A DNA stretch of 55,142 bases from Acidobacteriota bacterium (GTDB lineage Bacteria > Acidobacteriota > Blastocatellia > RBC074): positions 1 through 55,142 of the forward strand of contig JACPYM010000042.1 of the NCBI GenBank assembly GCA_016196035.1, written 5' to 3'. A program made the position numbers and the translations under genes. Under the pieces are notes generated by a model that had not been told where the DNA came from, ran no database searches, and worked only from the letters and a program-made list of their open reading frames with translations. Below are positions 1-20,270 of the stretch, in pieces; position 1 is the first letter of the stretch, and each line of letters starts with the position of its first letter.

Positions 1-29
1 GGGACGCAACCCCAATAACGACGCGATTC

Positions 30-48
30 CGGTGGTTTCACCACCGGC
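30..48. repeat. Short palindrome of the ccaccggct repeat family
   Basis: A perfect stem (ccggtggt/accaccgg) is followed by the string ggctaatgtccgtcgcgcc. The same string type (ccaccggctagtctcccgcg) occurs in the right arm of the large inverted repeat at 2639-2922, so this is another member of an interspersed family. Nothing else recognisable lies in bases 1-100. Confidence 0.55.
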
Positions 49-103
49 TAATGTCCGTCGCGCCTTCAGCGCGCAACTGAAAAGATTTGGGTAATGACAA
101 GGC

Positions 104-162
104 GTGAGCAAGGGCTTTCTGTCGCCAGCCGAGTCCTTGCTCACGCGCGGGCTACTGACACG
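104..162. repeat. REP-like hairpin, family shared with 25361-25388
   Basis: The segment gcgtgagcaagg pairs with ccttgctcacgc about 20 bases later. The right part, 135-162, is a 28-base string that recurs identically at 25361-25388. It lies just past the stop codon of the last gene of the minus-strand module and could act as a transcription end, although no T-run is obvious. The long-range identity marks it as an interspersed repeat rather than a dedicated terminator. Confidence 0.65.
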
Positions 163-171
163 AGCATCGGT

Positions 172-324
172 TTACGAACGTCTTTTGACTTCGACGACGA
201 CCGGCCATTCGTTCAACCAAACGATGACGAGCGCCGAAGAATAGACGACCTCGACCGCATAGCCGGCCGCTTCCAACAGCCGCGCGATCAAATTCAAATG
301 TGTGATCACCGGGTCTTCAGTCAT
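172..324 (-). CDS. 50-aa small protein translationally coupled to the reverse transcriptase
   Basis: The reading frame encodes 50 residues. It begins MTEDPVITHLNLIARL and ends in a Lys/Arg-rich tail (VEVKRRS), with a hydrophobic, beta-like stretch (VEVVYSSALVIVWL) between. Its ATG lies inside the last codons of the RT gene, so the genes overlap by 8 bases (ATGACTGA contains this start and the RT stop). This geometry is typical of stop-start coupled translation and argues for a real gene, as does the protein-like composition. The function is unknown. A small RT partner or an antitoxin-like protein are possibilities, but nothing in the sequence proves either. A chance ORF cannot be excluded at this length. 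Confidence 0.55.
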   Translation of the reverse strand: MTEDPVITHLNLIARLLEAAGYAVEVVYSSALVIVWLNEWPVVVEVKRRS

Positions 325-1762
325 AGCGCTTCCTCCTGTCATCCGGCTTCCGCCGTCTGACCAATTCCGCCGCGCGGTTAAACCCCGCCCGGCCTTTGTC
401 TAATGCCTGCTTGCCAAATTGCGAAAGCGCGGGCGCGGCCTTTTCGCGCCAGGCCGAAGCGGCTTCGTTCAGCAACACTCTGACCGGCTGCTGCTGTGTC
501 GAGGCGGGCGGCGGCGCGGCCGTCAATTGAAAGCGGTCAAAGCGGTAGCCCAGAAATTCCAGCCCCTGCTCAAAGCGCAAAATCCGCGTTTTTTCCGCGC
601 TCAGTTGCAAATGCAACTCGGCCAGTTTGCGCCCGGCAAATGCGAGCGCCCGTTCCGCGCTCGCGGCGTCCCGCGTCGTCACGACCCAATCGTCGGCATA
701 CCGCACCAGATGAAACCCAGCCCGCAGCATGGCGACGTCGAATTCGTGCAGCACGATGTTCAACAACATCGGCGAGAGCGGCGAACCTTGCACCGCGCCC
801 ACACCGCCCGCCCCTTGCGCTGAGGCGCCCCACCGCTGACGCAGAAATTGCGCGGCTTTCGGGTAGGCCGCCGTTGCCAGCACCGCCGCGCCCGTCAGCG
901 CCAACGAAGCCGGCGAAAGCAACCGTCGCGTGCGCCCCACATAGGTCAATCCCAATAACAAGGCATCGCGGCCCAATCGTTTATAAGCTTCGTGGCGCGC
1001 CGCCTTGCGCAAATCAGCGGCAGCCTCCATCTGTGACAAAGGGGGCGGCATGGCCTCGGTTCCGTGCAGCGCGCCGTAACCGCCATAAGCGCCATAACCA
1101 GCGCCGTGGCCATCACCACCCAGCATGTGCGTCAGCGCATCGTTGACGGCTCCTGTCGTAAAGTCAGCCACCCGCTCGCCCAATGGCACGGCAGTTTCGT
1201 TCCCTGCCCCAGTTTGCATGCCATTGCCAGCCGCCAGCACCAGCCGAATCAGCCCCAGCAAGCGTTTGTCACGCAAGCGTTGCCCGATCAGCCCCAGCAC
1301 GAGCTCGTGATCCAGACTGCCAAAGGCATCGGCCAGATCGGCATCCACGATGAAACCCTCGCCAGCGACGCGGTAATCAAGCACGCGTTTAACGGCCATC
1401 TCGACATTGCGCTGCGGGCGAAACCCATAGCTGCATTCCAGAAAGCTCGGTTCCCAGACGCGTTCGAGCAGGTCGTAAAGCGCCCGCCCCACGATCTTGT
1501 CTTCGACCGTGGCATTGCCCAGCGTGCGCTGCTTGCCATTGGCTTTTTGCACCTGAAAGTGCACCAGCGGCATCGGCAAATAACGGCCCTCGCGCAAGCG
1601 CGCCGCCAAATCCGCCAGATTGCCCAGCAAATTGGCTTCGTATGCATAGACCGACATTTGATCAACGCCTGCCACGCCGCGATTGCCGCGCACCTGTTTC
1701 CAGGCGGCCATCAAACTGCTCAACTCGCAAAACTGTTCAAAAAAACGCTGTTGCTTATCCAT
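317..1762 (-). CDS. Reverse transcriptase (group II intron-like) with a long Gly-rich/hydrophobic insertion
   Basis: A 481-aa RT. The start at 1762 is chosen because GGGAGGT lies 7 bases upstream; the longer ORF runs back into a palindromic repeat. RT landmarks in order are: the N-terminal motif around SYGFRPQRNV (111-120), palm motif A in FIVDADLADAF with catalytic D142, motif B VQGSPLSPMLLN (324-335), motif C RYADDWV with D357/D358, and the LEFLGYRF motif (401-408). Group II-like RTs usually have about 60-70 residues between motifs A and B, but here there are about 180. The extra block (about 180-320) holds a GlyTyr-rich run and an uncharged segment, PASLALTGAAVLATAAY, that could touch a membrane. 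No maturase, HNH or Cas1 domain is visible, and no intron RNA boundary was recognised. It follows RDD and VWA membrane genes on the same strand. The RT call is certain; the role is not. Confidence 0.9.
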   Translation of the reverse strand: MDKQQRFFEQFCELSSLMAAWKQVRGNRGVAGVDQMSVYAYEANLLGNLADLAARLREGRYLPMPLVHFQVQKANGKQRTLGNATVEDKIVGRALYDLLERVWEPSFLECSYGFRPQRNVEMAVKRVLDYRVAGEGFIVDADLADAFGSLDHELVLGLIGQRLRDKRLLGLIRLVLAAGNGMQTGAGNETAVPLGERVADFTTGAVNDALTHMLGGDGHGAGYGAYGGYGALHGTEAMPPPLSQMEAAADLRKAARHEAYKRLGRDALLLGLTYVGRTRRLLSPASLALTGAAVLATAAYPKAAQFLRQRWGASAQGAGGVGAVQGSPLSPMLLNIVLHEFDVAMLRAGFHLVRYADDWVVTTRDAASAERALAFAGRKLAELHLQLSAEKTRILRFEQGLEFLGYRFDRFQLTAAPPPASTQQQPVRVLLNEAASAWREKAAPALSQFGKQALDKGRAGFNRAAELVRRRKPDDRRKRYD

Positions 1763-1801
1763 CAGCGAGACCTCCCTTCGCTTCACTCTGACGTTTACCT
1801 C

Positions 1802-1831
1802 GCGCGCAGGGACAAGCAGTGTCCTTGCGCG
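1802..1831. repeat. Hairpin in the RT leader
   Basis: gcgcagggac pairs with gtccttgcgc (one G-T wobble) across a short loop, some 40 bases upstream of the RT start codon and outside its ribosome binding site. It could be part of an RT-linked structured RNA or simply a repeat fragment. Confidence 0.45.
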
Positions 1832-1851
1832 GTGAAAATTTTGCTTCCCCC

Positions 1852-1990
1852 CTGGGCGCGCAGGCGTCTCGCCTGCTGTAAGAAAAGCCGCGTAGCGTTC
1901 CTTATCCCTGCTTTCGCCTTTTGCGATGTTAAGGAACAAGGAAGGCTACGCCGCTTCTTTTATGGCAGGCGAGACGCCTGCGCACTCAGG
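1852..1990. repeat. Long inverted repeat (gcaggcgagacgcctgc family) between RDD and RT genes
   Basis: The left arm (about 1852-1903, containing caggcgtctcgcctgctg then agaaaagccgcgtagcgttc) pairs imperfectly with the right arm (about 1931-1990, gaaggctacgccgcttc then ggcaggcgagacgcctgcg). The tip of each arm is itself palindromic. It fills most of the 235-base spacer upstream of the RT. It resembles the REP/MITE-like elements in the other spacers of this module. Confidence 0.75.
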
Positions 1991-1997
1991 GCGGCGC

Positions 1998-2534
1998 TCA
2001 GCCGTCTTGGCTTTTCGCCGTCGCAGATTGGTGCAATCGCAACTGACGAAACACGCGCTCCGTCACCACTCGCGTCCCCGCCACCCAATCTTCCGGGCGC
2101 TGGCCCGCCGGGCTGAGCAACACACAAATCAACGCCGCGATTTCGTACCCCACGGCCCACGGCCACCATTGCCAACTGCACCACGCCGTTTGCGAGAGCG
2201 CCGAACCCACGCGGCGCGCGACAGCCTGCCAGAGCGCAGCCCTTACGCCGCTTTCAACCGCCACCACGCGCAGGCGGCAAACCCATTTCCCCACGCTGCG
2301 CCGTTCGGGCGCGGCCTCGCAGAGCAAGTGATAAAGCAAGACGACCACCACCCATTTGGGAAAGATGAGCGCCAACAATGGCAACGGCACTGTGCGATCA
2401 ATCAATTCCGCCAAACCGCGCCGCCACAACGCCGGCTTGCCTGAAACCAGCGCGCCGTTGCTGGTCACCGCTGCATTCGCATGCGCCGGCCAATCAGCGA
2501 CGACCTGAGTTTGGTCTGAACGTAGTAAAGACAT
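1998..2534 (-). CDS. RDD-family integral membrane protein
   Basis: A 178-aa protein with the three signature blocks of the RDD family: AELIDRTVPLP (residue R preceded by an ID), RRSVGKWVCRLRVV, and RPEDWVAGTRVV near the C-terminus. Two to three hydrophobic segments follow the RDD pattern. The start at 2534 is supported by AAGGAGG 7 bases upstream. RDD proteins are small multi-span membrane proteins, some linked to ion transport; the precise role here is unknown. The gene lies between the VWA membrane gene and the RT on the same strand, each separated by palindromic repeats. The membrane location is therefore solid and the link to RT function is inferred from order only. Confidence 0.85.
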   Translation of the reverse strand: MSLLRSDQTQVVADWPAHANAAVTSNGALVSGKPALWRRGLAELIDRTVPLPLLALIFPKWVVVVLLYHLLCEAAPERRSVGKWVCRLRVVAVESGVRAALWQAVARRVGSALSQTAWCSWQWWPWAVGYEIAALICVLLSPAGQRPEDWVAGTRVVTERVFRQLRLHQSATAKSQDG

Positions 2535-2638
2535 AGCGTTTCCTCCTTGTAAGTAGCGAATGGTTTTAGCCCTTGGTTTGACTACTAACCGATGTTACGC
2601 AGGCGAAGAATTGCAAGAAAGGTTGACACCCTCTGTGT

Positions 2639-2922
2639 GCCGGAGGCGCAGCGGATTTTAGCCGGTGGTGGAGGCCTAGCCGCAACCACCGGAAGCAGGC
2701 GCACACGCCCCGCGCCCCGGATGGGGCGCAGGACAAGCCTCCCCAATCAACAGCCACACAACAGTGTCTAACCTTGCTCCCGTGTCCGCGCGGAAGTTGC
2801 AATAGCGTAGCGGACAAGCTCAGTCCTGCGCCCCATCCGGGGCGCGCGTGGCTGGCATGCCGGGTCCCGGTGGTTGCGGCGAGGCCTCCACCACCGGCTA
2901 GTCTCCCGCGCGCCTCCGGCGC
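2639..2922. repeat. 284-bp nested inverted repeat (MITE/REP-like)
   Basis: The outer arms pair: left (2639-2692) gccggaggcgcagcgg, gccggtggtggaggcct and gccgcaaccaccgg; right (2867-2922) ccggtggttgcggc, gaggcctccaccaccggc and cgcctccggcgc. An inner pair, ccccggatggggcgcagga (about 2716-2734) with tcctgcgccccatccgggg (about 2823-2841), continues the fold. It occupies most of the 418 bases between the VWA gene stop and the RDD gene start. No ORF with gene-like content is inside. Transcribed, it would form a very stable structure. Confidence 0.8.
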
Positions 2923-2952
2923 AAAGAATTGTCAAATCCGAGCCGAACTTTC

Positions 2953-4695
2953 TTACGGCGTAACATCAGTACTAAATTTAGCGAGCGCCTGCTTGACCGC
3001 CTCGCGTGGCTCGCCGAAATACGGAATCGCCACCGCGCCCGGCGCCGCGCGCAACAATTCGGCGCGCCGTTGTGACCAGAGTTCAGCAGGGCTGGGAAGC
3101 GGTCTCGTCTTGCGGAAAGCGGTCGAGGCTGTTGGCAACTCCGGCAAAATCACCACGACCAGCGCCGCGTTGGCCGTAGCGAGCGAGAGTGCGGGTAATT
3201 GGTGCGAACACGAATCGTCAAGATCGGTAATCAGCACCACCAGCCGGCGTTGCGGGCGCGCGGACGCGGCAATGCGCAGCAAGCAGCCGCGCACATCGGT
3301 GCAAGGCGGTTCGACCGCTTTCCCCGGCAACAGTTTTTCCGGCGTGAGCACGGCCAGCCGTTGCCGCAGCGCCGCCAATTGCTGCGCGCGCGCCTGCGCC
3401 GCCTGTTGTTGCTGCGCGCCTTTGAAAAGCACGCCTGCTTCGCTCACTTCAGCCGCCACTGGCGCAGGCAAATCAAGCCGCGCGATTTCCGCCGCGCTCC
3501 AACCACGGTCGCCGAACTGATAGGCCGTCACCCGCCGTATGTCGTGCGTCAACGCCAACTCCGGCAACGCGGCCAACAGCGTCCGCACGGCCTCGGCAAA
3601 GGCTTGATCTTCCGCGCTGCGTGACCAATCCAGCCACAATTCCAGCCACACGCCCGCAGGCGTCTCAACGGCAGTTTCCTCAACAGCAGTTTCCGGCAGC
3701 GCTGTGGTTAGCGCAGGTGTGGGCGCAAGCGGCGGCGCACTCGCGGCCCTCACCGGAGCGAACGCTTTGCGCCAATCCGCCTGCGCCTGGCAACCGCTGC
3801 CGCCCACGGCCAGCGCCGCAACCAGCGCGGCCAGCCACACGCCATTGCGCCGGACGAGCGCGCCGGCGCGCAGCGTAGTGTTCGTCACCGGCACGCGCGG
3901 CGCGGCGACTTGCGGCCAATTGTGCGTTCCGGCTTCGCCGCCGCCGGCTTCACGCACCGCTTGGCGGGGCGCGGGGCGCGGGCGTAATTCCTGCGCCACT
4001 TGCTCGGCCCGCTGCAACACCTTGTTGGTCTCGACGGCTTCGCGTTCCAGCGCGTTGAAGCGGTTCTCGGCGTGCCGGCTCCAAGACATCAAATAGCCCA
4101 GTGCAAACAGCCCCGCCGCCAAGCCCAAACACCCCAGCGAGAGCGCGCACAACGCCAGATTGATGAAGGGCAATAACAACAACGCGAGCACGCCCGCCGA
4201 CCGCGCGAACAGCAACGCGCCCAGCGACAGCATCGTCAGCACCAGCGCCGGCGCGATCACATAGCGCCGCAACCGTTGCCGCGTCTGTTGCGGTTGCGCC
4301 GGATTTCGCCACAGCGCTAGCACGCCCACTTTGAGCGCAAAAATCGAGACCAGCGCCACCAGCAATAAAAACGGCGCGCTTACGGCAAAGACCAGCGCCA
4401 CCACGACGGTCAACACCAACTCGGTCAAGGCCAGGCACAGCGCGCTCAGGTTGATCACCCGCGCATCGCGCAAATCCCCCTCGATCGTCATGGGCCGCCG
4501 CGCCTCGCCCGCGTCGCGCGAAGTCCACGCCGCCAGCGTCGCCGCATATTCACGGCACTGCCGCAGCGCCTTTTCGCTCAAGCGCCGCTGCTCTTGCCGC
4601 AACACGGGCACGGCCTCTTCCGCCGCCTTGCGCCGCTGTTCGGGCGCGCCGTTGTTGAGGTTGAAGGCGATCTGTTTGCGTTCTCCAGTTTGCAT
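2953..4695 (-). CDS. Multi-span membrane protein with C-terminal VWA-like domain
   Basis: A 580-aa protein. The N-terminal 75 residues are charged and helical. Hydrophobic segments follow at about 83-128, 145-166 and 168-204, then a charged linker, another membrane segment at about 284-302 ending in GGSGC, and a Pro/Ala-rich linker. The last 230 residues form a VWA-like fold: LWLDWSRSAED carries a DxSxS MIDAS motif (D356, S358, S360) and LVVLITDLDDS (about 485-495) supplies the second metal-site Asp region. The positive RRNG before the last span suggests the VWA part is outside the cytoplasm. The start at 4695 has AAAGGAGG 6 bases upstream. VWA domains bind protein partners in a metal-dependent way; the partner is unknown. 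It is the first gene of the VWA-RDD-RT set. Confidence 0.8.
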   Translation of the reverse strand: MQTGERKQIAFNLNNGAPEQRRKAAEEAVPVLRQEQRRLSEKALRQCREYAATLAAWTSRDAGEARRPMTIEGDLRDARVINLSALCLALTELVLTVVVALVFAVSAPFLLLVALVSIFALKVGVLALWRNPAQPQQTRQRLRRYVIAPALVLTMLSLGALLFARSAGVLALLLLPFINLALCALSLGCLGLAAGLFALGYLMSWSRHAENRFNALEREAVETNKVLQRAEQVAQELRPRPAPRQAVREAGGGEAGTHNWPQVAAPRVPVTNTTLRAGALVRRNGVWLAALVAALAVGGSGCQAQADWRKAFAPVRAASAPPLAPTPALTTALPETAVEETAVETPAGVWLELWLDWSRSAEDQAFAEAVRTLLAALPELALTHDIRRVTAYQFGDRGWSAAEIARLDLPAPVAAEVSEAGVLFKGAQQQQAAQARAQQLAALRQRLAVLTPEKLLPGKAVEPPCTDVRGCLLRIAASARPQRRLVVLITDLDDSCSHQLPALSLATANAALVVVILPELPTASTAFRKTRPLPSPAELWSQRRAELLRAAPGAVAIPYFGEPREAVKQALAKFSTDVTP

Positions 4696-4837
4696 ACCAA
4701 TCCTCCTTTGTTGTTTCTGCGATTGCCTGAAAACGCGGCGAAGATAAGGCCGAGGGCGTCAAAGCGCAGCAAAACAATGCTGGCAGCAAGCTTGCTGGAA
4801 AGGTTGCGGAAAGGTTGTTGGCACTTGGACAGAAAGG

Positions 4838-4970
4838 CTGCCCCCTGGGTGCGCACGGCTGCCGGCCTGCCGTCTTGGCAGGAGACCGATTGATGCCAAA
4901 AGAAACCCTCCGGCAGCAGTCAGCCTTAGGTCGAGACAGCAGGCTGGCAGCCGTGCGTACCCGGGGTGCT
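4838..4970. repeat. Inverted repeat overlapping the CARF gene stop codon
   Basis: ctgccccctgggtgcgcac and gctgccggcctgc on the left (4839-4870) pair with gcaggctggcagccgtgcg and acccggggtgc (4939-4969) on the right; cttggca/tgccaa is an inner stem. The right arm runs into the stop codon of the upstream CARF gene, so the element sits exactly at the gene end and could stop or thin transcription toward the VWA gene. Confidence 0.7.
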
Positions 4971-6126
4971 AAAGAATTTCGAGCAGGTTCTTATCCAGAT
5001 TCAACCCGTAGGTGGTCTCGCCCCACTTGCGCCGCGCGTTGATCTTGGCCGAGAGCGGGCGCAACGTCTGATTGAGCTTGGTGTGATAGGACAGCAGCGA
5101 ATTTGTATCGAGCCTGCTGGCAGGCGCGTCTGCGCTGTCAACGCCCACGTAAAGCCGTTTGTAAAACTGCTGAAAGTTTTCGACCGTCAGCGCCGGGGTG
5201 GTAAAGCATTCCTGGCAAGCGCCGCACACCGGCAGGTTCGGCTGCACACAGCGATTGAGCTTCACATCGGCGTAATAGGCCAGCAACGCCAGCCTGACGC
5301 CGCGCACCGTCACCGCCCGCGCGCCAAAGCGCACGCGCTGCCCGGCCAGCTCGATCACCAGCCGCTGCGGCGCGGTGCGGTCAAGCCGCTGTTGCGCAAT
5401 CGTAATCAGCTCCTGCAAACCGTGCTCGACCTTGCCCACGTCTTCGCCCAGCGTATTGCGCAAGCGCACAAACGGAATCTGCGCCACCTCCAACTTGGCT
5501 TCGCTGGTATTGATAATCGCCAGCTTGTTCCCGGCCACCCGAATCGGCAGCGGTTGATTCTGTTTGGGCGGGAAGAAAAAATCGGAATTCGTCTCGAACT
5601 CTTCGGTCACCACCACGTGCGTCAACTCATCCTCCGCGCGCCCATACATCATCAGCGCCAGCATCATATAGGCCGACATCGTGCGCCGCCCGCCGCCCAG
5701 CGAACAGTGCAACACGACATTCGGATCAATCGTCAACGCCTTGATGAAGCCCAACAACTCCGACGCCAGCGTCTCGTTATCCGCCGACGAGCGAATGTCA
5801 TCGAGCGGCGTCTCGCTGCCATCCGCATACCGTCGTTTGAAAACCAGGATGTTCTCTTTGTTAAAGACAATCTCGCCCCCGATTTCATACTCGCGTTGCA
5901 ACGCGGCAATCGCCCCGTCAGTTCCGCCCAGCTTCGCCCAAGCGATCTCGGCCCCCTTCGCCGTCGTCAGGATGTAGACCTCTGAAATCGGAATCGGTGG
6001 CTGTTGCGCGACGGCCAACACATACAACGTCTCGGTCACGATCTGCGGCGTATTGCCCGTGACCGCCACCAGGATGTGCTGCTTGGCGGTTGGTTTGTTG
6101 TCGTTTGTCGGAGTTGTTTTTTTCAT
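4969..6126 (-). CDS. CRISPR-associated CARF protein, NE0113/Csx14 type (candidate ring nuclease)
   Basis: A 385-aa protein. The N-terminal half has the NE0113-type CARF pattern: HILVAVTGNTPQIVTETLY (about 17-35), ILTTAKGAE, and the ligand loop LHCSLGGGRRTMSAYMM (about 139-155). This family is found with type III loci, and related CARF proteins bind or cleave cyclic oligoadenylate. The C-terminal 165 residues form an extension with CGACQEC (301-307), a possible metal knuckle, and end in a basic KINARRKWGE block. No HEPN RxxxxH motif was found. ATG 6126 is preferred; a longer TTG start would fall inside a palindromic repeat. No clear Shine-Dalgarno is visible. The ring-nuclease role is family inference. 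Confidence 0.82.
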   Translation of the reverse strand: MKKTTPTNDNKPTAKQHILVAVTGNTPQIVTETLYVLAVAQQPPIPISEVYILTTAKGAEIAWAKLGGTDGAIAALQREYEIGGEIVFNKENILVFKRRYADGSETPLDDIRSSADNETLASELLGFIKALTIDPNVVLHCSLGGGRRTMSAYMMLALMMYGRAEDELTHVVVTEEFETNSDFFFPPKQNQPLPIRVAGNKLAIINTSEAKLEVAQIPFVRLRNTLGEDVGKVEHGLQELITIAQQRLDRTAPQRLVIELAGQRVRFGARAVTVRGVRLALLAYYADVKLNRCVQPNLPVCGACQECFTTPALTVENFQQFYKRLYVGVDSADAPASRLDTNSLLSYHTKLNQTLRPLSAKINARRKWGETTYGLNLDKNLLEIL

Positions 6127-6153
6127 CGTGTACGAATGGTTGGGCGGGTTGTC

Positions 6154-6235
6154 CGACAAGCTGCCAGCTTGTCGCGGCGTGGCCGTAAAACCAATTGGCT
6201 ACCAGCCAAGACTTCGACAAGCTGGCAGCTTGTCG
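6154..6235. repeat. Pair of 21-bp palindromes (cgacaagctgNcagcttgtcg)
   Basis: cgacaagctgccagcttgtcg (6154-6174) and cgacaagctggcagcttgtcg (6215-6235) are each near-perfect palindromes and also pair with each other, giving a cruciform-prone 82-base element. It lies between the HEPN-TonB stop and the CARF start. Confidence 0.8.
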
Positions 6236-6259
6236 AACATACAAACAATCAGTCCGCGC

Positions 6260-7834
6260 TCAGCGCACATAAATCGTAATCACGCTCTGCACCTCAGTCG
6301 GCACGCGATTCAGTAGGAATGGCCGGAAGCTCCATTGCCGCAAGGCCTCCAACGCCGCATTCCGCAATAGCATTTCGCCCTCCACGACTTCGGCTTTTGA
6401 AAGGTGCCCATACTTTGACAGATAGACCCTGATCACCACCGGCCCTGCAACACCCGTGCTCTTGGCTTGCGGCGGCAACACCGCATTCACCCGCTTGGTC
6501 GCATACTGCAAAAACTCTTTCTCGCTGATCGTGAAGGTCTCGTCTTCCGCCGCACGCGCTGGCGTCTGTTCCGGCGCCGGCCTGGGCCGCCGTTCGACCG
6601 TAGGTTCCGCCGTCGCCGTCGGCCCAGCCACCGCCGCCGCCGTCGGCTCCACCGTAGGGGCCGCTTCCGCCGAGCCGCCCGCCGGTTTCGTATCAACGGC
6701 AATCTCCCCATTCTCATTCGGCTGCGCCGTTTCGGTCATTGCCGCCGCCTGGGCCGCCTCGTACTGCTGCCGCGCCTGCACAATCAAATTCTTCGCCTCG
6801 GCCAGATTCCCGCTCTTCCTGGCATTCATCGCATTCCGCCGCAACTCTTCCGCCTGCCGCCACTGCTCCACGGCTTTCTGTTGCGCCTGCGCATTCACCG
6901 CCGCCCCACGCACCGCGCTTACATCTTTGAGCAATTCCTCAAAGCTCAACGTCTCCGCCAGCCGCGCATTCACCCCATCCCAACTGCCGATCACCTGCCG
7001 ATACAGCCCTTCCGCCAGCTTGAAATTCTCGCGCTTGAACTCAATCTCGCCATCCCGCCAAGCCGCTTCCGCCTGATTGACGTAATCCACAAAATCACGC
7101 TGCTTCCGCTTTTCGCGCACCTTCTTCAACGCCAACTCCGCCGCTGTCCGCACCACCGTCGCGCTGCCCTTATCGCCTTTGTAAAGCGCCCACAGCTTCG
7201 GATAAGCAAACATCCCACCCATTACTAACACACCCAACACCACCAGCTTGCGCACCCCACCAGCAATGGTCTGCCGCGTAGCCTTGCGTTCCTGCAACTC
7301 CCGCTCGTGCCGTGCATGCTGCAAGCGCGCCTGTTCCAACCGTAACGCCTCAGCCCGCGCCTGCTGCGCCGCTTCAGACTGTTCGATACGGACGCGCTCC
7401 GCCTGCGCCTGTTGCTCGCGCCGCTGGCGTTCATCCTCGACCTGCCTGCCCCGCACATCCGCATCCGGATCGCGATAGATCGCCTGCTTGAGTTCCGGCG
7501 GAATCGCCGGTTGGCGGCACACATCGCCGATGGCCTCGATCAAACAATTCACCGCATTCTGATGATCCCGTTCGTTAAACTCGTTCCCGGTCACATGCGC
7601 AAACGAATTCCGCACCTTCAACGCCCACAGCACCCGCGTGAAATTACTCAAGCTGTGCTGACAGGCAATCACCCGCTCGCCCACCTTCGGCTCTCTGCCC
7701 TCATCAGCGGCGGCGACGTCCGGGTTGTACATTTTCAGCAAGTATTCCAGCAGCGTCGTCAGATGCATCAGCTTGCTGCCGGCGTGGCGTTCGTGCTGGA
7801 TTTGGGGGATGGTGAGAAAGTTGGGAGGAAGCAT
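6260..7834 (-). CDS. HEPN-like / coiled-coil / transmembrane / TonB C-terminal fusion
   Basis: The product is 524 aa from ATG 7834 (a TTG three codons earlier is possible; GAGG lies 11 bases upstream of the ATG). Residues below are numbered from that TTG. Part 1 (about 25-125) is an all-helical domain with RNSFAH (R78-H83), matching the RxxxxH catalytic motif of HEPN ribonucleases. Part 2 (130-192) is a Glu/Arg/Gln-rich coiled coil. Part 3 (about 198-217) is one membrane span after basic residues, giving an N-in topology. Part 4 (240-370) is helical and TPR-like. Part 5 (380-430) is a Pro/Ala/Thr linker. Part 6 (445-527) is a TonB-C domain with VVIRVYLSKYGHLSKAEVV and ALRQWSFRPF. The RNase-like part would be cytoplasmic and the TonB-C part periplasmic. 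It follows the RAMP genes directly. HEPN assignment rests on the motif and helical context, not on a search. Confidence 0.75.
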   Translation of the reverse strand: MLPPNFLTIPQIQHERHAGSKLMHLTTLLEYLLKMYNPDVAAADEGREPKVGERVIACQHSLSNFTRVLWALKVRNSFAHVTGNEFNERDHQNAVNCLIEAIGDVCRQPAIPPELKQAIYRDPDADVRGRQVEDERQRREQQAQAERVRIEQSEAAQQARAEALRLEQARLQHARHERELQERKATRQTIAGGVRKLVVLGVLVMGGMFAYPKLWALYKGDKGSATVVRTAAELALKKVREKRKQRDFVDYVNQAEAAWRDGEIEFKRENFKLAEGLYRQVIGSWDGVNARLAETLSFEELLKDVSAVRGAAVNAQAQQKAVEQWRQAEELRRNAMNARKSGNLAEAKNLIVQARQQYEAAQAAAMTETAQPNENGEIAVDTKPAGGSAEAAPTVEPTAAAVAGPTATAEPTVERRPRPAPEQTPARAAEDETFTISEKEFLQYATKRVNAVLPPQAKSTGVAGPVVIRVYLSKYGHLSKAEVVEGEMLLRNAALEALRQWSFRPFLLNRVPTEVQSVITIYVR

Positions 7835-7969
7835 CGCAGCCAAAACCTCATTTCCGCTTGCTCGATTGAGGAAAAGATTACGTTGAGATAGCTCTTCAAA
7901 GGCTCAATTGCCCATGTTCAATAGACCAACACCCGTCATAACCAGGCAAAGACGAATCAGCAACGCGCA

Positions 7970-8178: not shown

Positions 8179-8400
8179 AATCATTTTCGCTGTAGCCAAA
8201 AGCACACGGGTTTGCGCATTGCCACGCCCGGGCGAGGTCTTCCGCACCTTGGCGGAGAGCCTGCCTTCGTAAATTGGAAAAGAGCTAACCGCTCAACGCT
8301 CCTGGCGCCCTCGCTCGACGCATTGGCCGGTGAGTTGCTCAATGGCGGCGGTTTGGGGGTAGTGAGCGGTCGGGTGAAGTTGAGAATAGCCATTTTGTTC

Positions 8401-10560
8401 TCAATCATTCTGCCGCCACCTTTTCAGATCATCGGGCACGCCTGCAACCTGCTCAGTAAAAGGAAGTATTTGCGCGCGCCGATCTCTGATCTTCTCCGGC
8501 TTGCGGTTTTTCATAAACCACTCGAAGTTTTTAGCGTTCGTCCCCTCCAGCAATGGGTAGTGTGTTAATAGCTGGTAAACCACCGGGAATTGCAGAATCG
8601 CGCTAAGATCAACAATGTTCGATAACTGCTCGAAGGGCTGACCAAATCGTTGCTTCATCCAATCTTGAAATACAGCCACGTACTCTTCCCGCCAATTGGA
8701 AGCCGCTTGGTTTCCTTCTTCAAAGGATTCATGTGTAGCTGAAAAGAGCTTTTGGTAGCGTGTATTCCGGTCAATCAAGACAACATCCTCGACAATAATG
8801 GCGACGCTGCCCAATCCAATTGGCTTTCCCATGCCCATTTTATGAGCCATCCCATCATCTAGCGCTAAACTCCATAACAACGCTCCCAGTTCGTAACCTT
8901 CGAGATTGGAAAAACGAACCATGAAGCGGAACTCGTTCTCCGCAGCCAGTAGGCGGACAGTGGCGTTTTGCGAGTTCTGCTTCCTCATCCCTTGTTTCTC
9001 TTGCCATTGATATTGGCCTTTATCTTTCTGGTGCCAATAAAATTTGCGCCCTCGCAAGCGCATGAACTCATCATCGTAGTTACGATGTCGCGGGTGTTTC
9101 CCACCAATCCATACGCCAGTTGGGTCATCAGCATTCACTAGATAGAACTCGCAGGATGTGGGTTTGGGAGAACTCAAGATTTCGAGCGTGACCTCTGCTG
9201 CATGCTTGACTTTATCGCCGATGAAGTGGGCGTCCGAGAATGAAACCCTTCCGGCGTATGAAGACCGTTGAGGTGATCCCTGCTTTGCTTCACTGACAAA
9301 GCCGAACAGCCGCGCAGTCGGATCAAGTTGTTGATTATCAGTGGCCGGATGAAAGAAAGGATCGAGCAAATCCCTCACTGAATGCCGATACCTGTATCGT
9401 GGTATCGAGACATAACCCAAATCGCATGCATCACCGTTACTTTCGCGGAAGTAGACCAGTTGCCCTTCTTTCAATGGGTAGTTGTCACGTTTGAGAATTT
9501 CTGCGGCAACAAACGCATTTTCAGAACTGTCGCGTTGCTGCTTGGCACGCTCTTGCTGTGCCTTGATCAATTCGTTGTAGGCTTTCACTTCCTCAGTAGA
9601 AAACCGAAAAAGTTTCTTCTCAGCCTCATAAAAAAACTTTTCACTACGCTTCAAACTATCGCCGGTTTCATTCGTAATGATGTGCCTGCCGGTCAGTTTC
9701 ACGTAGCCTTTTTTGGCTTTGAGTTGATCCGGCTTTTGTTTATGCAAGGCGACGACGATCTCGTTATTATTGGCGGTATTGCCAAGCTCGGCCCAGACTT
9801 CATCACCATCCGTTGCCCAACTCGCATCTCGATCAAGGACATCAAAAGGCACTCTGACTGTCCTCATCTTTTGTATCTCACCAGGCATATTTTGCGTCGG
9901 CAATTTAATAACTCTTCCTGCTGCTCTGAATTCACCTGGTAAGCTACGCCGATCTAACTGTTTTGAGCTAATGGCGGTAAAGCCACTGTTTGTTGCAGCC
10001 TCAAACACTGAACGGACGGCACCGCGAATGGTTGAGCCGTGAATCATTGGGGTGCGTGGTTTATTAGATGGCGCTTCTGTCGAGCAGTAATCCATCTGTT
10101 TGTGGCCTTTTGTTTCACTACCCTCTTCTGTGTCCTGTTTGATCGTGCGGGAATCCGGCGTGAAAAAAGGAGTCAGCGTTCTTAATCGGCAAGTGATCGT
10201 ACCTGACAATCCATGAAAACTATTATGTGGTACAAAGGCTTTTTTGAACGCAGTTTCTTGTTCTGGCAAGGGGCTGGCAATTCGCACAAAATTATATGGG
10301 TTTCTGAACTGGCGTGGCCCGCCACAATAATTCGGTGGGTCAGGTAACGTAATGCTTTCAAAACGATCCTCGCCTATGCGCCCGACTCTTGGCTCGCCCT
10401 TGTTACCCGCAGGAACGAAATGAAGGCTATCCCCCACATTGAGTAGGTTAAGGTCTAAATCTTTGAGTACCGCTTTATCGGCCACATAGACTTTTCCATC
10501 AGTCCCTGAAATGCGAAGAATTCTTCTTTGGCGATCAATCTGAGAAATTTTCCCCTGCAT
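8401..10560 (-). CDS. Large TIGR03986-type RAMP (Cas7-like) with N-terminal OB-like extension
   Basis: A 719-aa protein. The first 70 residues (MQGKISQIDRQRRILRI and following) read like a small OB-fold RNA-binding domain. The block PYNFVRIASPLP then matches the N-terminal signature of TIGR03986 RAMPs, followed by the loop IHGSTIRGAVRSVFEAA and, near the C-terminus, HKMGMGKPIGLGSVAII, the Gly-rich RAMP loop. GRVSFSDAHF precedes a WIGGKHPRHRNYD segment. Such proteins are backbone or accessory subunits of III-D-like complexes that bind crRNA or target RNA. AGAGGGA lies 7 bases before the start. It is a paralogue of the next gene upstream, 41 bases away. Confidence 0.85.
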   Translation of the reverse strand: MQGKISQIDRQRRILRISGTDGKVYVADKAVLKDLDLNLLNVGDSLHFVPAGNKGEPRVGRIGEDRFESITLPDPPNYCGGPRQFRNPYNFVRIASPLPEQETAFKKAFVPHNSFHGLSGTITCRLRTLTPFFTPDSRTIKQDTEEGSETKGHKQMDYCSTEAPSNKPRTPMIHGSTIRGAVRSVFEAATNSGFTAISSKQLDRRSLPGEFRAAGRVIKLPTQNMPGEIQKMRTVRVPFDVLDRDASWATDGDEVWAELGNTANNNEIVVALHKQKPDQLKAKKGYVKLTGRHIITNETGDSLKRSEKFFYEAEKKLFRFSTEEVKAYNELIKAQQERAKQQRDSSENAFVAAEILKRDNYPLKEGQLVYFRESNGDACDLGYVSIPRYRYRHSVRDLLDPFFHPATDNQQLDPTARLFGFVSEAKQGSPQRSSYAGRVSFSDAHFIGDKVKHAAEVTLEILSSPKPTSCEFYLVNADDPTGVWIGGKHPRHRNYDDEFMRLRGRKFYWHQKDKGQYQWQEKQGMRKQNSQNATVRLLAAENEFRFMVRFSNLEGYELGALLWSLALDDGMAHKMGMGKPIGLGSVAIIVEDVVLIDRNTRYQKLFSATHESFEEGNQAASNWREEYVAVFQDWMKQRFGQPFEQLSNIVDLSAILQFPVVYQLLTHYPLLEGTNAKNFEWFMKNRKPEKIRDRRAQILPFTEQVAGVPDDLKRWRQND

Positions 10561-10601
10561 AGTTGTGTCCCTCTATTCGAGTTCAAGTCTGTCTAGTCAA
10601 C

Positions 10602-12686
10602 TCAGCGCGACGCACGCACACCAATCGGCGATGTTGCCGCCTTCACCCCGCTAACCGCCAACGGGTCAGGTAGCACCGGGCGGTCTTTGTATTCATTGCC
10701 AAGCTGCGGATGTTCGATCAACAAGTAGCGCGTGCGATCAGCCCACTGCGCATTCCATTCGCGCCATTCGAGCATTGCCAACAACATCTGAATGCGCGGG
10801 ACATCAGCCAGCTTGCCGGTCTTAGGCGCGACCGCCTTCAGCACGAAACGTTCAAAGGCCGTCAGCAATTCAGCCAGCTTGGCGGCATCAGCCTCAGCCG
10901 CGCCATCCGCAAACCTGCCACCGTCAAAGAGCCGCGCATAACGTTCGCGCCGCTCGGTCAGATGCAGCGTCATCGTAATCTTAACCGCGCCCATTCCCAG
11001 CGGTTTGCCCATGCCGAGTTTGTGGCAATAGTTCTTGCCTGCTTCGCCCGGTAAACAAAGCGCCCAAGCCAGCGCGCCCAATTCGTAAGCGCGCAGGTTC
11101 TCGAAATGCACGCGGAAGCAGAAGCGCACGCCAGCCTTGACCGGTTCAATGCGGGTCAGTTGCGATTCCTTCGTCTTGTCATCGGCCAGCGGAATCTTCG
11201 CGTCGCCCTTGTGCCAGTAAAACTTGTGCCCGCGAATCTCGGCCCCAGTGCTGAAATGAGCGAGCGAACCGCGCAAATCCGGGTCGTGCCCCTGCGTTTT
11301 GTCCTGCACGAGGTAATGCTGAAAGGTGGTGATCTTTGGGCCGCTCAACGGCGCGGGCTTGATGGCAGCCGTGCTGTACCACACGCCATTTTTGCTGCCC
11401 ACAAAGCGGGCATCGCTGAAAGAGACACGACCGGCGCGTTGCTTGATTTCTTTGCGCGCATCGAGATTGCCTGGCTCTTCTTCTACCCAGCCGAAGATCG
11501 CTTCGGCCAGATCGGGCTGGCTGGCATCTTGCCGCAAGCTGGCCGGGATGAAATCGCGCACCGCCGCCAGCCCGCCGTCTTCATTCCGCGCGGGGATGCG
11601 GAAGTTCGGCGTGTGGCCGAACCAGAAGACCCCGCCATCTTTGGCGGTCACATAAAACACTGGCGCGCCTTCTTCCAAGCCGCCTTCCGCCCAGAGTTCA
11701 TCGCGCTGGAACGGCGTCAGGCTCTCGCGGTAAGCGTCCAGCATTTTGGACGCAATCTTCAATGGCTTGGCGCGCTCGTCCGCTTCCAATACCAGCGCGT
11801 GATTGCGGCGCGGCGAAGCCTGCTCGTCCTTGCCGCCTTCGATCATGCTGCCGCTGCAAACCAGCACGCCGCGCTGTTGGTAGTTGTCTTCCACATCGCC
11901 GATCTGCGTGATGCGCACGAACGTGCCGCGTTTGCCGCGCTCGTTGACGGCGTTGAAGCTGACCTTGAAATACTCCGGCCAATAATCCCAATCATCGAAG
12001 CGGTAGAAATCCTTGATCGCCTCGCTGGGGATTTTGGCCTCTTTGACTTTCAGGTAAGCGGCCTGTTCCGTCCAGCCTTTTTGTTTGGGCTTGAGCGCGG
12101 GTTGAATCGTCCAATCGCCATTGGGTTGCTGGCGCAAATATCCGGCCAGCACGTTGCGGCTGAACGCACCGATGACGTCTCGATACGGTTCGGCCAGCGG
12201 GTCTTCGCGCGCAGCCGCGACTGCGCGGAAGGTGACTTTCACCGTGTCATTCACCCAACGCATTTTGCCGTACCCGGCAATCTCGATCAGCCCGCGAATC
12301 ATCCCGCGCAAACTGCTGCCAGGGATGGCGGGCGCGGGGCGGCCTTCGACGGTTTGCTTAGGGTCAGTTGAATAAAAGCCCGCGCGCTCCTTCTTCCGCT
12401 CAGCCTGTTCAGCCTCGGTCAGCTTGCGTTCTTCTGCCGGGTCGTACTTTTCGTGCTGTTCGCGCGTCATCAGCCCGCGCACGTATGTGGGTGAACACGT
12501 CACCAACTCGCAATCGAACCAGCCGGTATGCGTGTCCTCTTCGTAGCTGTTCAGCTTCGGCAGCTTATCTTGGTCAACGGTGATGACCTTTTCCGGCAAT
12601 GGCACGAAGTTGTAAGGCGCGCGTGCCGTGCGTTGCGGGCGTGTCGGATTGAAATGCTTGAGCCGGTTGTTATTGCCTGTTGCCAT
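10602..12686 (-). CDS. Large TIGR03986-type RAMP (Cas7-like) protein
   Basis: A 694-aa protein with the same landmarks as its downstream paralogue: APYNFVPLPEKV at about 23-34, the loop AIPGSSLRGMIRGLIEIAG, GRVSFSDARFVG, and the C-terminal Gly-rich loop HKLGMGKPLGMGAVKI. It lacks the OB-like N-terminal extension and starts with a short basic tail. The start is fixed by AAGGAGGT 5 bases upstream and overlaps the csx19 end by 17 bases, so translation is probably coupled. As a RAMP it should be part of the type III ribonucleoprotein. Which position it takes (Csm5-like cap or an extra backbone unit) cannot be told from sequence alone. Confidence 0.87.
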   Translation of the reverse strand: MATGNNNRLKHFNPTRPQRTARAPYNFVPLPEKVITVDQDKLPKLNSYEEDTHTGWFDCELVTCSPTYVRGLMTREQHEKYDPAEERKLTEAEQAERKKERAGFYSTDPKQTVEGRPAPAIPGSSLRGMIRGLIEIAGYGKMRWVNDTVKVTFRAVAAAREDPLAEPYRDVIGAFSRNVLAGYLRQQPNGDWTIQPALKPKQKGWTEQAAYLKVKEAKIPSEAIKDFYRFDDWDYWPEYFKVSFNAVNERGKRGTFVRITQIGDVEDNYQQRGVLVCSGSMIEGGKDEQASPRRNHALVLEADERAKPLKIASKMLDAYRESLTPFQRDELWAEGGLEEGAPVFYVTAKDGGVFWFGHTPNFRIPARNEDGGLAAVRDFIPASLRQDASQPDLAEAIFGWVEEEPGNLDARKEIKQRAGRVSFSDARFVGSKNGVWYSTAAIKPAPLSGPKITTFQHYLVQDKTQGHDPDLRGSLAHFSTGAEIRGHKFYWHKGDAKIPLADDKTKESQLTRIEPVKAGVRFCFRVHFENLRAYELGALAWALCLPGEAGKNYCHKLGMGKPLGMGAVKITMTLHLTERRERYARLFDGGRFADGAAEADAAKLAELLTAFERFVLKAVAPKTGKLADVPRIQMLLAMLEWREWNAQWADRTRYLLIEHPQLGNEYKDRPVLPDPLAVSGVKAATSPIGVRASR

Positions 12687-13278
12687 TACGTACCTCCTTG
12701 GTTAAATCCCGTTCTTCCAGTCCAACCAGGCGACTGCATTTGATGATGGCCTGACCGTCTTCGTCTTCGCTCAAGTAATGGTGAACGAGCAAAGCCAACC
12801 GATGGTCATTATCAATCTGAACTGTGCGCGGCACGACCTGTCGCAGGCCGGTGCTTTCCTCTCGAATTGCCATGAAATCATCAGTCAGCTTGGCGACTTC
12901 GCGATTGCCGAGCAGGAGTTGATGTTCCGGGATGAATTCCGCGCCGGGTTGGTCAAGCACTTTGCGCCCGCGCCATTCGCTGTCCGACAAACGCCAGATG
13001 AACAATTCACCTTGCGAGCCGAAGAGGCGGCATTGTTGAATCGTCAACGTGCGCAACGGGGGCGTCCAATCTTGATATGCGGCAACCAGCAGTTCGCCGT
13101 TTTCTACGCGCCCCCACAGCACGCCGTCATCCAGATGAATCAGCGCATAAATCTGTTCGCCGGGCGCGGCTAAATCACCCGACTGCTCCACCAGCCACAC
13201 GCCTTTGTTTTCAGCAAAGTTGTCGCGCGGTGTTATGGGCGTCAGTTTGGGCAAAGGCGCCGGTTTGAATTCGGTCAT
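12670..13278 (-). CDS. csx19: Csx19-like type III-D subunit (TIGR03984 type)
   Basis: A 202-aa acidic protein. The pattern YALIHLDDGVLWGRVENGEL, then QQCRLFGSQGELFIWR, WRGRKVLD, LLLGNRE, GLRQVVP, and VHHYLSEDEDGQAII with CSRLVGLE fits the Csx19 family that marks III-D loci. The biochemical role is poorly defined; it is thought to be a structural part of the III-D complex. The start overlaps the stop of the preceding Cas7 fusion gene by 4 bases (ATGA). Identification is by recall of the family pattern, not by a search. Confidence 0.78.
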   Translation of the reverse strand: MTEFKPAPLPKLTPITPRDNFAENKGVWLVEQSGDLAAPGEQIYALIHLDDGVLWGRVENGELLVAAYQDWTPPLRTLTIQQCRLFGSQGELFIWRLSDSEWRGRKVLDQPGAEFIPEHQLLLGNREVAKLTDDFMAIREESTGLRQVVPRTVQIDNDHRLALLVHHYLSEDEDGQAIIKCSRLVGLEERDLTKEVRNGNRQ

Positions 13279-14873
13279 GATTGTTTCTCCTTCAGCGCAG
13301 CCAACTCAGTCCACGGCACTTGTTGTAGTTGGGCGACGCAATGCTCAAGCTTGTCCGCCGCCGTTGCGTCATCAAACGCAAGCGCGCTGCTATCCTGCGC
13401 CGTCAGCGTGACGGTCAACGGCGCTTTGCCCCACGCGCGCCAACGCAACGTAGCCGTCTGCCCGCGCAAGCGCCCGCGCCCGACGCTGCTTGCGCCGCCG
13501 AGCGGCAAGTCGCCGAGCCAAAGGTCTTTCAGCACCAGCAACAACAAACCGATTTCGGCTTCGCTTTGGTCGTTGGGAATCAGATGGAGCTTGAGCTTGA
13601 GGTTGGCCTGCCCGCCGAAATGCGGCGCTTCTTCCAGCAAGGCCGCCTCGATGGTGCCTTGCGTGAAGCGGTCAATCTTGATGCGCGTTTGCACCAGACT
13701 CTGGCCGCCGTTGACGAACTCTTCGTTGACTAACACTCGGCTGGCGCGCGCCTGTTTGGCATCCTTGATCTCGTGTGGGCCAAATATCTCGTTGATGAAT
13801 GCTTGCACGCCTTCGCGCTTTCGTTCGTCCGCGCCTGCCAGCGTATTGGCGATGCGTTGCGCACGTTGCCGCAGCGCGCCCGCGACACTGGTGCCGGGCA
13901 AGACCGCCTGCCGCTTGCCCGTGCGCGGATTGTGCGTTTGCATATGCACGGTGTCTGGCCCGCGATCCTGTTCATCAAAACCGGAGCGCACGAGCAACGA
14001 ACCGTCTACGGCCAAACTCGCGTCAATCTCGAAGCTCTCGCGCAAGTCCTTCACGCTTTGCAATTCGTCGAGCGAGACGCCCAGCAAGCCCGCGATGTCG
14101 CTGCCAGATGTTGGCTTCGGCCTGGCTTTCACCCATTCGGGATGCTCTGCCGCCAGCCACGCCACCAACTCTGCCGGTTTGTTCAATTCGTAGCGTGTGA
14201 CTTCCCATTGCCTAACTTCGCAACAGCCGAAGCCGCGCCGCTTGCGCGCGCCCAACCTGATCTCGCCCGTGCCCAGTCCACGCAACGCAAGCGTCAATGC
14301 GCATAGGCGGTCTTGATTCAAGTTGGCGTGCTTGTCCAACAACAACTCAAAGCGCAGCCCGAACTCCGTTCCGGCGGGCAACAACTGGTAATCGAACTTC
14401 TTCTCGTCAGTGGCGGTGCGGGTTTCCGCGTCAATCGCCACACCGTCACGCCATTCGATCTGTGCAGGGGGTGAACTGTAAGCGTCGTCAACGATCAACG
14501 GGCTTTGCTCACCGTCTTTGTACCCACGATGTCCGCCAAACAATCTGCCTGCCAGAATTTCTGACTCGTATTGGGCACCATCCTTGAAATCTTCCTGCTC
14601 GCTACGTGACGGATGCGCGAGTTCGTACCCCCATTGCCACTCGCGCAGAAAGTTGCGCAAAGCCCCGGCCAGCGATGCGCCGGGAATCAACGCACGCTTG
14701 GTCACTTCATCCAACAGCAGTGGCAAATCAGTCGCCGCATCGGCGTCGCCGTTGCCGAAATGGGCGGGGCGCGTCAACACCAGCTTGCCCGTAACAATGA
14801 TGCGCGCCGTCAGATTGCGATGCGTGGTACGTGGGCGGTGGATGGCGACCGGCATGATAGGTGACTGATTCAT
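13275..14873 (-). CDS. Fused double Cas7 (Csm3-like RAMP-RAMP) protein
   Basis: A 532-aa protein with two consecutive Csm3-like domains. Domain 1 (about 20-225) has the start block HFGNGDADAATDLPLLLDEV, the loop IPGASLAGALRNFL (63-76) and the Gly-rich loop GARKRRGFG. Domain 2 (about 282-500) repeats the order: LLVRSGFDEQDRG, LPGTSVAGALRQRAQ (325-339), the thumb-like RIKIDRFTQGTIEAAL (397-411) and SSVGRGRLRGQ. Asp residues near the expected target-cleaving position are present in both (D49 region, D307 region), so RNA cleavage is plausible. Cas7 fusions are typical of III-D/III-E-like loci. It overlaps csx10 and csx19 by 4 bases on each side, indicating tight translational coupling. Confidence 0.88.
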   Translation of the reverse strand: MNQSPIMPVAIHRPRTTHRNLTARIIVTGKLVLTRPAHFGNGDADAATDLPLLLDEVTKRALIPGASLAGALRNFLREWQWGYELAHPSRSEQEDFKDGAQYESEILAGRLFGGHRGYKDGEQSPLIVDDAYSSPPAQIEWRDGVAIDAETRTATDEKKFDYQLLPAGTEFGLRFELLLDKHANLNQDRLCALTLALRGLGTGEIRLGARKRRGFGCCEVRQWEVTRYELNKPAELVAWLAAEHPEWVKARPKPTSGSDIAGLLGVSLDELQSVKDLRESFEIDASLAVDGSLLVRSGFDEQDRGPDTVHMQTHNPRTGKRQAVLPGTSVAGALRQRAQRIANTLAGADERKREGVQAFINEIFGPHEIKDAKQARASRVLVNEEFVNGGQSLVQTRIKIDRFTQGTIEAALLEEAPHFGGQANLKLKLHLIPNDQSEAEIGLLLLVLKDLWLGDLPLGGASSVGRGRLRGQTATLRWRAWGKAPLTVTLTAQDSSALAFDDATAADKLEHCVAQLQQVPWTELAALKEKQS

Positions 14874-16540: not shown

Positions 16541-17214
16541 TGCCCCAGCACCTCCTGTTGAAAGGTCTCGAAGTATTGGCGGGTTTTCTCAGGGCTTTCG
16601 ATCACAGCCTGTACGTTGCCGCGCCCGCGATTGCGGCTGGCCCCAACGCGCCGCCAAGCCAGTGTCGCTGCCGCCAACAAGGCCAGGTCTTTTTCGTCGG
16701 GCGATTGATCGAAGGTCAGCAGGGATTCAAATGGCAGACCGGGCAGGACGACGCGCAGCGAACGAAGCGAAGTAGACTCTGGCGCGCCGCGCTCTGTCAT
16801 CGCAGTTTGCCGCCGAATGGCCGTGAGCGCCGCCAGCACCGACGACGCATGGACGCGCGCATCGCCGCCGACTCGTTGATTGCCGCGTTGCTCTACCGAC
16901 CAAGCCAGCAAGCGCCACAAACCATCCGATAGACGCGCATCGCCAATGTGCAAGATACCGCTGCCATTGATTGCGCCGCTGACACCCAGCAATCGGTTGC
17001 GCGTTGTTCGCCAAAGCTCGGCTCGTTCACCCAAAGCATCCAGCAGGCTTTCGATCTCTTCGGCCAGTAGGCCGCGCAACGCCCGGCCACGCAAAAACGG
17101 CAAGCCGTATTGGTCGTGTTCGACTTCCTGATCTACATAACCGGCTAGTCCGCCGCCGCGCCCGAACGTGGCAGGCGTCTGCAATTCAAAGCGCAAGGTC
17201 AAAGTCTTTGTCAT
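16537..17214 (-). CDS. Single-domain Cas7 (Csm3-like RAMP)
   Basis: 225 aa from ATG 17214 (MTKTLTLRFELQTPATFG), chosen because this ATG forms an ATGA overlap with the cas10 stop; the longer ORF upstream lies within cas10. Features are GRGGGLAGYVDQEVEHDQYG with an Asp (D28) near the usual catalytic position, the loop FLRGRALRGLLAEEIESLL, and the C-terminal Gly/Arg loop RRVGASRNRGRGNVQAVI. It is the backbone or target-cleaving subunit of the III-D complex, standing directly behind cas10. Confidence 0.85.
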   Translation of the reverse strand: MTKTLTLRFELQTPATFGRGGGLAGYVDQEVEHDQYGLPFLRGRALRGLLAEEIESLLDALGERAELWRTTRNRLLGVSGAINGSGILHIGDARLSDGLWRLLAWSVEQRGNQRVGGDARVHASSVLAALTAIRRQTAMTERGAPESTSLRSLRVVLPGLPFESLLTFDQSPDEKDLALLAAATLAWRRVGASRNRGRGNVQAVIESPEKTRQYFETFQQEVLGQ

Positions 17215-20258: not shown

Positions 20259-20270
20259 CAACCCTCCCTT

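Follow-up and report, generated by a model that had tools for sequence, protein, structure and literature searches.

Where in the cell CRISPR systems collect their spacers, and why some of them use a reverse transcriptase (RT), are open questions, and both are raised by the left edge of an Acidobacteriota contig of 55,142 bases (G000:C42), which was analyzed whole and is called the window below. There, four consecutive minus-strand open reading frames (ORFs), encoding a candidate VWA membrane protein, an RDD-family membrane protein, an RT with an additional insert and a small protein, were confirmed as the tail of a type III-D CRISPR operon. Profile searches of the window support this assignment: Cas10, Csx10, Csx19 and III-D Cas7 proteins are all present. 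Our preferred explanation, with a probability of about 0.55, is that the RT belongs to an RT-Cas1-Cas2 spacer-acquisition module of this operon, docked at the membrane through the insert and the RDD protein. Sequence comparison demonstrated that the RT is of CRISPR-RT ancestry, has intact catalytic motifs and carries a lineage-specific hydrophobic insert, that its relatives are linked to cas1 and arrays, and that insert-bearing RTs are linked to RDD genes; from the linkage we infer membrane docking of the RT. With its membrane-type insert and a membrane partner that recurs, this CRISPR RT opens the question of location to testing.

The RT groups with CRISPR reverse transcriptases

Searched with PADLOC profiles, the window RT matched the general RT profile at 2.4e-72, RT-Cas1 at 7.8e-42 and the best DRT profile at 9.1e-25. 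Phylogenetic analysis of 53 RTs placed the ten insert-bearing RTs, seven active and three catalytically dead, on one branch (support 99/98), and this branch joined RT-Cas1 fusions (96/93) in a set of 23 rows: 12 fusions, the 10 insert-bearing rows and one further RT. The tree was drawn from a quick tree of 98 rows after taking out 6 rows that were long, short or identical, together with 39 from the 51 viral rows; columns filled in fewer than half of the rows were dropped, and the published CRISPR-RT clades are not among its rows. The quick tree gave the same insert branch (support 88), and one dead row (L017) was a long branch in both trees. By sequence, the window RT groups with CRISPR RTs, and its RYADD motif and RT3 aspartates are intact.

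A structure model of the RT, with fingers and palm modeled at high confidence, had group II-type RTs as its best Foldseek matches. No group II family was among the 4 RNA-family matches at E≤1 around the RT (window 1-9000), and the RT stood apart from RTs resembling ordinary group II intron RTs; a group II intron was rejected on both grounds. An initial annotation of this DNA had proposed RT phylogeny as a check, and its outcome puts the RT with RT-Cas1 fusions. A DRT-type system was rejected on the profiles and the tree.

Viral contigs yielded 67 RT relatives, none spanning the insert by match length, and no plasmid among the best 5000 records covered 80% of the RT. The G504 RT occupies two overlapping frames (L181 3657-5089), a frameshift either in the assembly or in the genome.

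Relatives of the RT are linked to cas1 and CRISPR arrays

The window itself holds no Cas1, and its edge lies 171 bases past the small ORF. Bases 1-102 are a dispersed repeat with 41 matches in the genome, itself included, 4 of the others at 95% identity or more; a contig ending within such a repeat marks a natural spot for an assembly break. In all six insert-RT loci whose contig runs past the RT, cas1 lies within the cluster; it adjoins the RT or is separated from it by one gene or, in G007, by the small ORF alone. Each of the six Cas1 proteins has a Pfam Cas1 match, at 9.8e-10 for the remaining piece in G036 and at 3.5e-87 or better for the other five. CRISPR arrays were present at four of the six loci; the stretches given hold 8 repeat copies in G007, 11 in G504, 10 in G013 and 120 in G019. 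The initial annotation had taken the missing Cas1 to mean that this was not an acquisition set; since the contig breaks in a repeat and cas1 is found in every continuing relative, its absence here is uninformative, that reading is not supported, and genuine absence of Cas1 was rejected as a conclusion, with loss in this genome kept as an unlikely alternative.

The six loci differ in gene order. G007 reads CARF5-VWA-RDD-RT-small ORF-Cas1-Cas2-array; G036 reads III-D cas genes-RDD-RT-Cas1 before the contig end cuts it; G019 reads cas genes-penicillin-binding protein-RDD-Cas1-Cas2-RT-Cas2-array; G013 reads membrane TPR protein-RT-Cas2-Cas1-Cas2-array; G017 reads RT-Cas1-Cas2; and G504 reads CARF5-DUF4258-DUF4407-two-span protein-penicillin-binding protein-RT-Cas1-Cas2-array.

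Two cas2 genes per adaptation cluster were seen in G019 (L027 9118-9390 and 10885-11160; both Pfam Cas2) and, by similarity, in G013 (L028 1122-1403 and 2823-3152). Penicillin-binding protein genes (transglycosylase and transpeptidase) lie beside the RT module in the type III CRISPR loci of G019 (L027 12941-15304) and G504 (L183 6909-9311). Cas1 matches in the window's own genome comprised a type I-E cas1 on C45, with Cse1 adjoining, and a stray fragment on C111; the C45 locus (L043 1-8000) is of type I-E, with Cse1, Cas5, Cas1 and, at the contig end, a short array of repeats. In the window, positions 1-9000 and 18000-55142 showed no CRISPR array.

The insert between RT3 and RT4 is marginally membrane-compatible

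The odd insertion that the initial annotation saw in the RT is real and common to relatives: in the six RTs measured it spans 133-144 residues, between motifs RT3 and RT4. Five copies had no Pfam match, and the window copy had no PDB sequence match better than E 0.39. It was modeled as helices 194-214, 242-278 and 284-317 plus a disordered stretch. The last helix is hydrophobic: its highest 19-residue Kyte-Doolittle mean ranged from 1.48 to 2.08 across the 10 insert rows; the median for 88 control RTs without insert was 1.06, with 2 of these above 1.48 and 1 reaching 1.57. On a membrane-insertion scale, with a simple position weight of our own making, the insert rows scored 0.18-2.03, the lowest of the 88 insert-less RTs 2.38, and the best RDD span 1.04. 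The insert is membrane-compatible but marginal.

A profile search for the insert in 162 genomes of the class gave 19 genomes passing E 1e-9, of which 7 had full matches and 12 matched only the end with the common RT4 motif. Among 396 genomes drawn from the phylum, 5 had full matches, all within this class, a restriction shown for these two sets of genomes only; both searches score a limited number of candidates per genome. G007 and G504, missing from the phylum-draw matches, were presumably not drawn.

An RDD subfamily accompanies insert-bearing RTs

The window RDD protein scored 31.5 bits against Pfam RDD (cut-off 24.1). A profile built from six RDD proteins found 8 places in the 162 class genomes at E≤1e-8, 7 of them strong (E≤2e-29), and all 7 strong places were clustered with an insert-bearing RT on the same strand (window, G007, G036, G019, G000:C87, G001:C473 and G001:C1127). 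Because six of these seven built the profile, their own matches are expected; the real test is the sole additional strong place, C1127, which also lies with an insert-bearing RT. The eighth place, G030, was weak (7.8e-9), and neither an RT nor a cas gene matched in the 5.9 kb examined there. The four RDD-RT gaps measured were 9 to 235 nt, and in G019 cas1 and cas2 intervene. Overall, RDD accompanies 7 of the 10 insert-bearing RTs, in four CRISPR loci and three non-CRISPR loci; G017 ends at a contig edge, which limits its RDD status. A search for RDD in genome contigs, using two narrow patterns, returned only G036 and G007 again. Pfam and PADLOC detected no CARF or SAVED sensor in the RDD or VWA protein.

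The initial annotation had proposed a search for conserved co-occurrence of the four genes. The order in G007 and the recurrence of RDD with RT bear such co-occurrence out in part, but the four genes are not an obligate set: outside the window, only G007 had a detected small ORF, and the VWA gene occurs without an RT in two genomes.

A same-strand membrane-protein gene lay within two ORFs upstream of the RT-cas1-cas2 module in 6/6 insert loci and in 2/10 RT-Cas1 loci without insert (G008 and G084; Fisher p 0.007), a contrast that is suggestive only, since the rule was post hoc and the loci are related. The count excludes G017, and G041 and G452 were dropped as having no upstream ORFs. In G007, where an overlapping frame hid the RDD gene, the VWA gene was counted instead, and in G504 the nearest ORF, which is the RT's own first piece, was skipped.

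Catalytically dead RTs keep the insert and the RDD partner

The three non-CRISPR loci each pair an RDD gene with a dead RT. These RTs are long open frames (382, 436 and 435 aa) that have kept the insert and lost YxDD and QGxxxSP; the RT3 aspartate is replaced by Ala in G000:C87 and by Glu in both G001 copies. They form one clade (99/97). Retention of the insert and RDD after catalysis was lost is the best evidence that the two belong together, and it suggests that the partnership was kept for something besides DNA synthesis.

Next to C87 and C473 lie genes for a sigma-70-type factor, for an ATPase (matching AAA_22, or nSTAND1 below threshold) and for a GAF-domain protein that also has a histidine-kinase-type ATPase domain. 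The G000:C87 cluster adds a TIR gene, and in G000 these neighbors are oriented opposite to the RT. G001:C1127 has different neighbors. A response regulator read by eye in the G000:C87 cluster had no Pfam support and is not claimed.

The VWA protein is an occasional neighbor

The MIDAS-containing VWA domain of the initial annotation holds up in part: D-x-S-x-S is kept in 3 aligned sequences, and the 50 best Foldseek rows of a low-confidence model (mean pLDDT 57) were mostly vWA-type (best E 2.3e-3, none ≤0.001), but Pfam did not recognize the domain. Relatives occur in 5 of the 162 class genomes: at III-D loci in G000, G007 and G001, the last cut by a contig end, and in G467 (L218 7969-9828) and G456 (L219 8033-9465), where 18 kb examined of each held no RT or cas match. 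Given these last two, VWA was rejected as an obligate RT partner. In G456, read by eye, two proteins take its place, one with three spans and one VWA-like with a lipoprotein-like start. This split supports placing the VWA domain externally in the fused form; on the predicted topology, the domain probably lies outside the membrane.

A proposed model and its alternatives

In the model that we prefer, the free-standing CRISPR-type RT would be the acquisition end of the III-D operon, as in the relatives that cluster the RT with cas1, cas2 and an array. The insert, probably packed against the RDD protein, may hold the RT at the inner membrane, and RT-Cas1-Cas2 would then work at the envelope. The RT would copy RNA, probably phage transcripts, into cDNA for spacer integration via Cas1-Cas2; the model for this step is Marinomonas mediterranea RT-Cas1, as described in PMC5541045. 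The VWA protein would be an accessory, and VWA and, elsewhere, penicillin-binding or TPR proteins may tie the complex to the envelope. The extra hydrophobic insert and the recurring membrane partner suggest that immune memories may be made at the membrane. More tentatively, the insert-RT and RDD could be a self-standing membrane unit with two settings. In one it would hold an RNA-copying CRISPR adaptation complex to the membrane, perhaps at the point of phage nucleic acid entry; in the other the RT would have lost catalysis and turned into a structural protein or a sensor, next to sigma-factor, STAND-like, kinase and TIR genes. If true, CRISPR memory would be made in a membrane-bound form, and an RT fold would have been reused as a non-enzyme.

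Several observations weigh against the docked-module model. The insert was modeled at low to middling confidence (block means 41-75), its helix is Ala/Gly-rich and marginal in hydrophobicity, and one dead insert row, at 1.48, is surpassed by 2/88 Kyte-Doolittle controls. RDD is absent in G504 and G013. The membrane-neighbor rule was set after the loci were seen, and counting strictly from the RT reduces the insert loci to 5/6 (p 0.035). The window's own assembly, reported 97% complete, contains no III-D cas1 and no GTTTCAATCC-type array. The RNA origin of spacers is drawn by analogy with M. mediterranea RT-Cas1, and 8000 bases of the G019 array gave no phage-record match at E≤0.01.

The marginal hydrophobicity also suits an ordinary RT-containing III-D acquisition module. 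Its insert would then be a soluble domain that docks onto Cas1 or the effector complex, and the membrane genes, RDD and VWA among them, would be unrelated ancillaries of the sort that collect in type III loci. Partners that vary by locus (penicillin-binding protein, DUF4407, TPR protein) and the occurrence of VWA without RT point the same way, but the strong RDD-subfamily places all lie with insert-bearing RTs, three of them outside CRISPR loci, and we consider this explanation rather unlikely. The RT-RDD pairs that have no cas genes and lie close to genes of TIR, STAND-like ATPase and kinase type could instead indicate that RDD, VWA and RT are a separate membrane-linked antiviral effector, DRT-like and merely beside CRISPR genes. 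That is improbable: every active copy on a continuing contig clusters with cas1, the RT and RT-Cas1 profiles far outscore those for DRT, and the non-CRISPR copies are catalytically dead. The initial annotation had proposed a membrane-linked RT defense, independent or accessory to the III-D operon; the tie to the operon and the membrane-protein neighbors stand, and the stand-alone defense system is not supported.

A decaying remnant, in which cas1, cas2 and the array were lost from this genome and the four genes left over, would account for the missing III-D cas1 and array in the assembly. It sits poorly with the contig ending in a dispersed repeat at exactly that point, with open ORFs, ribosome sites and coding-type divergence, and with the intact GGDD of Cas10, and we hold it to be very unlikely.

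Relation to known systems

Free-standing CRISPR RTs beside cas1 (RT-CRISPR clades 1, 9 and 13; Toro et al. 2017/2018, PMC5541045, PMC6013744) share with the window a group II-like RT apart from Cas1, with no intron RNA, in a type III locus. Compared by description rather than by placement among those clades, the window RT differs in its RT3-RT4 insert and RDD partner. Type III RT-Cas1 fusions of the Marinomonas mediterranea type (PMC5541045) are the nearest RT relatives in the tree and share the cas1/cas2/array linkage, whereas the window RT is unfused, has the extra insert and adjoins membrane-protein genes. The type III membrane effectors Cam1, Csx23 and CorA are likewise membrane proteins encoded with type III CRISPR, but RDD and VWA have no detected CARF/SAVED sensor and sit at the end of the locus that holds the RT. 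Mobile group II intron RTs share the RT fold and gave the best Foldseek matches; the window RT differs by having no intron RNA, a different branch and the insert.

The searchable portions of PMC5541045 and PMC6013744 do not mention insertion, membrane, hydrophobic or Acidobacteri; that of PMC5513706 lacks insertion, transmembrane and RDD and has "membrane" once; that of PMC12669027 lacks RDD and vWA; and in that of PMC8934634 none of five terms looked for occurs. No paper was found joining CRISPR, RDD family, membrane protein and type III, none joining RDD domain, reverse transcriptase and bacteria, and none joining CRISPR, penicillin-binding, reverse transcriptase and type III-D. An insert-RT/RDD CRISPR variant was not mentioned in searchable papers, which does not prove novelty; Shmakov 2018 and Shah 2018 are likely to hold prior art.

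Gene layout of the module and neighboring features

The module genes and neighboring features are listed in Table 1. The ORF list also holds a longer, 540-aa RT frame starting at TTG 1939. GGAGG-like ribosome sites precede all four starts, the small ORF included; the initial annotation had reported them for VWA, RDD and RT. Substitutions relative to G007 at codon positions 1/2/3 numbered 19/8/31 for the small ORF, 180/136/233 for the RT, 44/35/63 for RDD and 256/198/305 for VWA; since the third position changes most and the second least in every case, all four genes look coding, in agreement with the initial gene calls.

Table 1. Coordinates of features in the window and of RDD-dead RT pairs elsewhere.
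Feature	Position	Strand	Remarks
Dispersed-repeat copy at contig end	1..102	.	41 genome matches including itself; relatives have cas1 further on
Small ORF, 50 aa	172..324	-	Overlaps RT end by 8 nt; own ribosome site
Reverse transcriptase, 481 aa, RYADD intact	317..1762	-	ATG at 1762, stop at 317; Pfam RVT_1 9e-24; PADLOC RT 2.4e-72
RT insert, 144 aa (RT residues 180-323), between motifs RT3 and RT4	794..1225	-	Hydrophobic helix near residues 281-300
RDD-family membrane protein, 178 aa	1998..2534	-	Pfam RDD 2.5e-7; adjoins insert-bearing RTs in relatives
Membrane protein, 580 aa, VWA-like C-terminal domain (about residues 346-577)	2953..4695	-	Hydrophobic spans; D-x-S-x-S; weak Foldseek vWA matches
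CARF5 / Cas_NE0113 protein	4969..6159	-	Pfam 1.8e-34; TIGR02584 1.5e-53
TonB_C protein, part of same gene run	6260..7843	-	Pfam 5.4e-11
III-D effector genes: Cas7-type, Csx19, Csx10/Cas5, Cas10 with GGDD	8401..18986	-	Pfam, PADLOC and TIGR matches
CARF-PDDEXK	18996-20261	-	PADLOC
CARF with two membrane spans	20271-21284	-	PADLOC
RDD + dead RT pair, G000:C87	L081 2989-4890		
RDD + dead RT pair, G001:C473	L092 1008-3171		
RDD + dead RT pair, G001:C1127	L179 6800-8687		

The small ORF had no match in Pfam, PADLOC or PHROGs, and 24 of 48 aligned residues are identical to its G007 counterpart. Its end has an E-x-K-like stretch reminiscent of a nuclease core, with no family match behind it.

A MIR869 match at 1829-2002 was attributed to chance similarity with a palindrome. 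Between the TonB_C gene and the first Cas7 gene, at 7971-8187, a repeat with 21-nt spacing occurs in nine diverged copies. A palindrome-like pair at 2632-2927, in the VWA/RDD interval, is related to the dispersed repeat at the contig end, and both sites overlap sub-threshold Rfam Acido-Lenti-1 matches, at 29-73 and 2867-2923.

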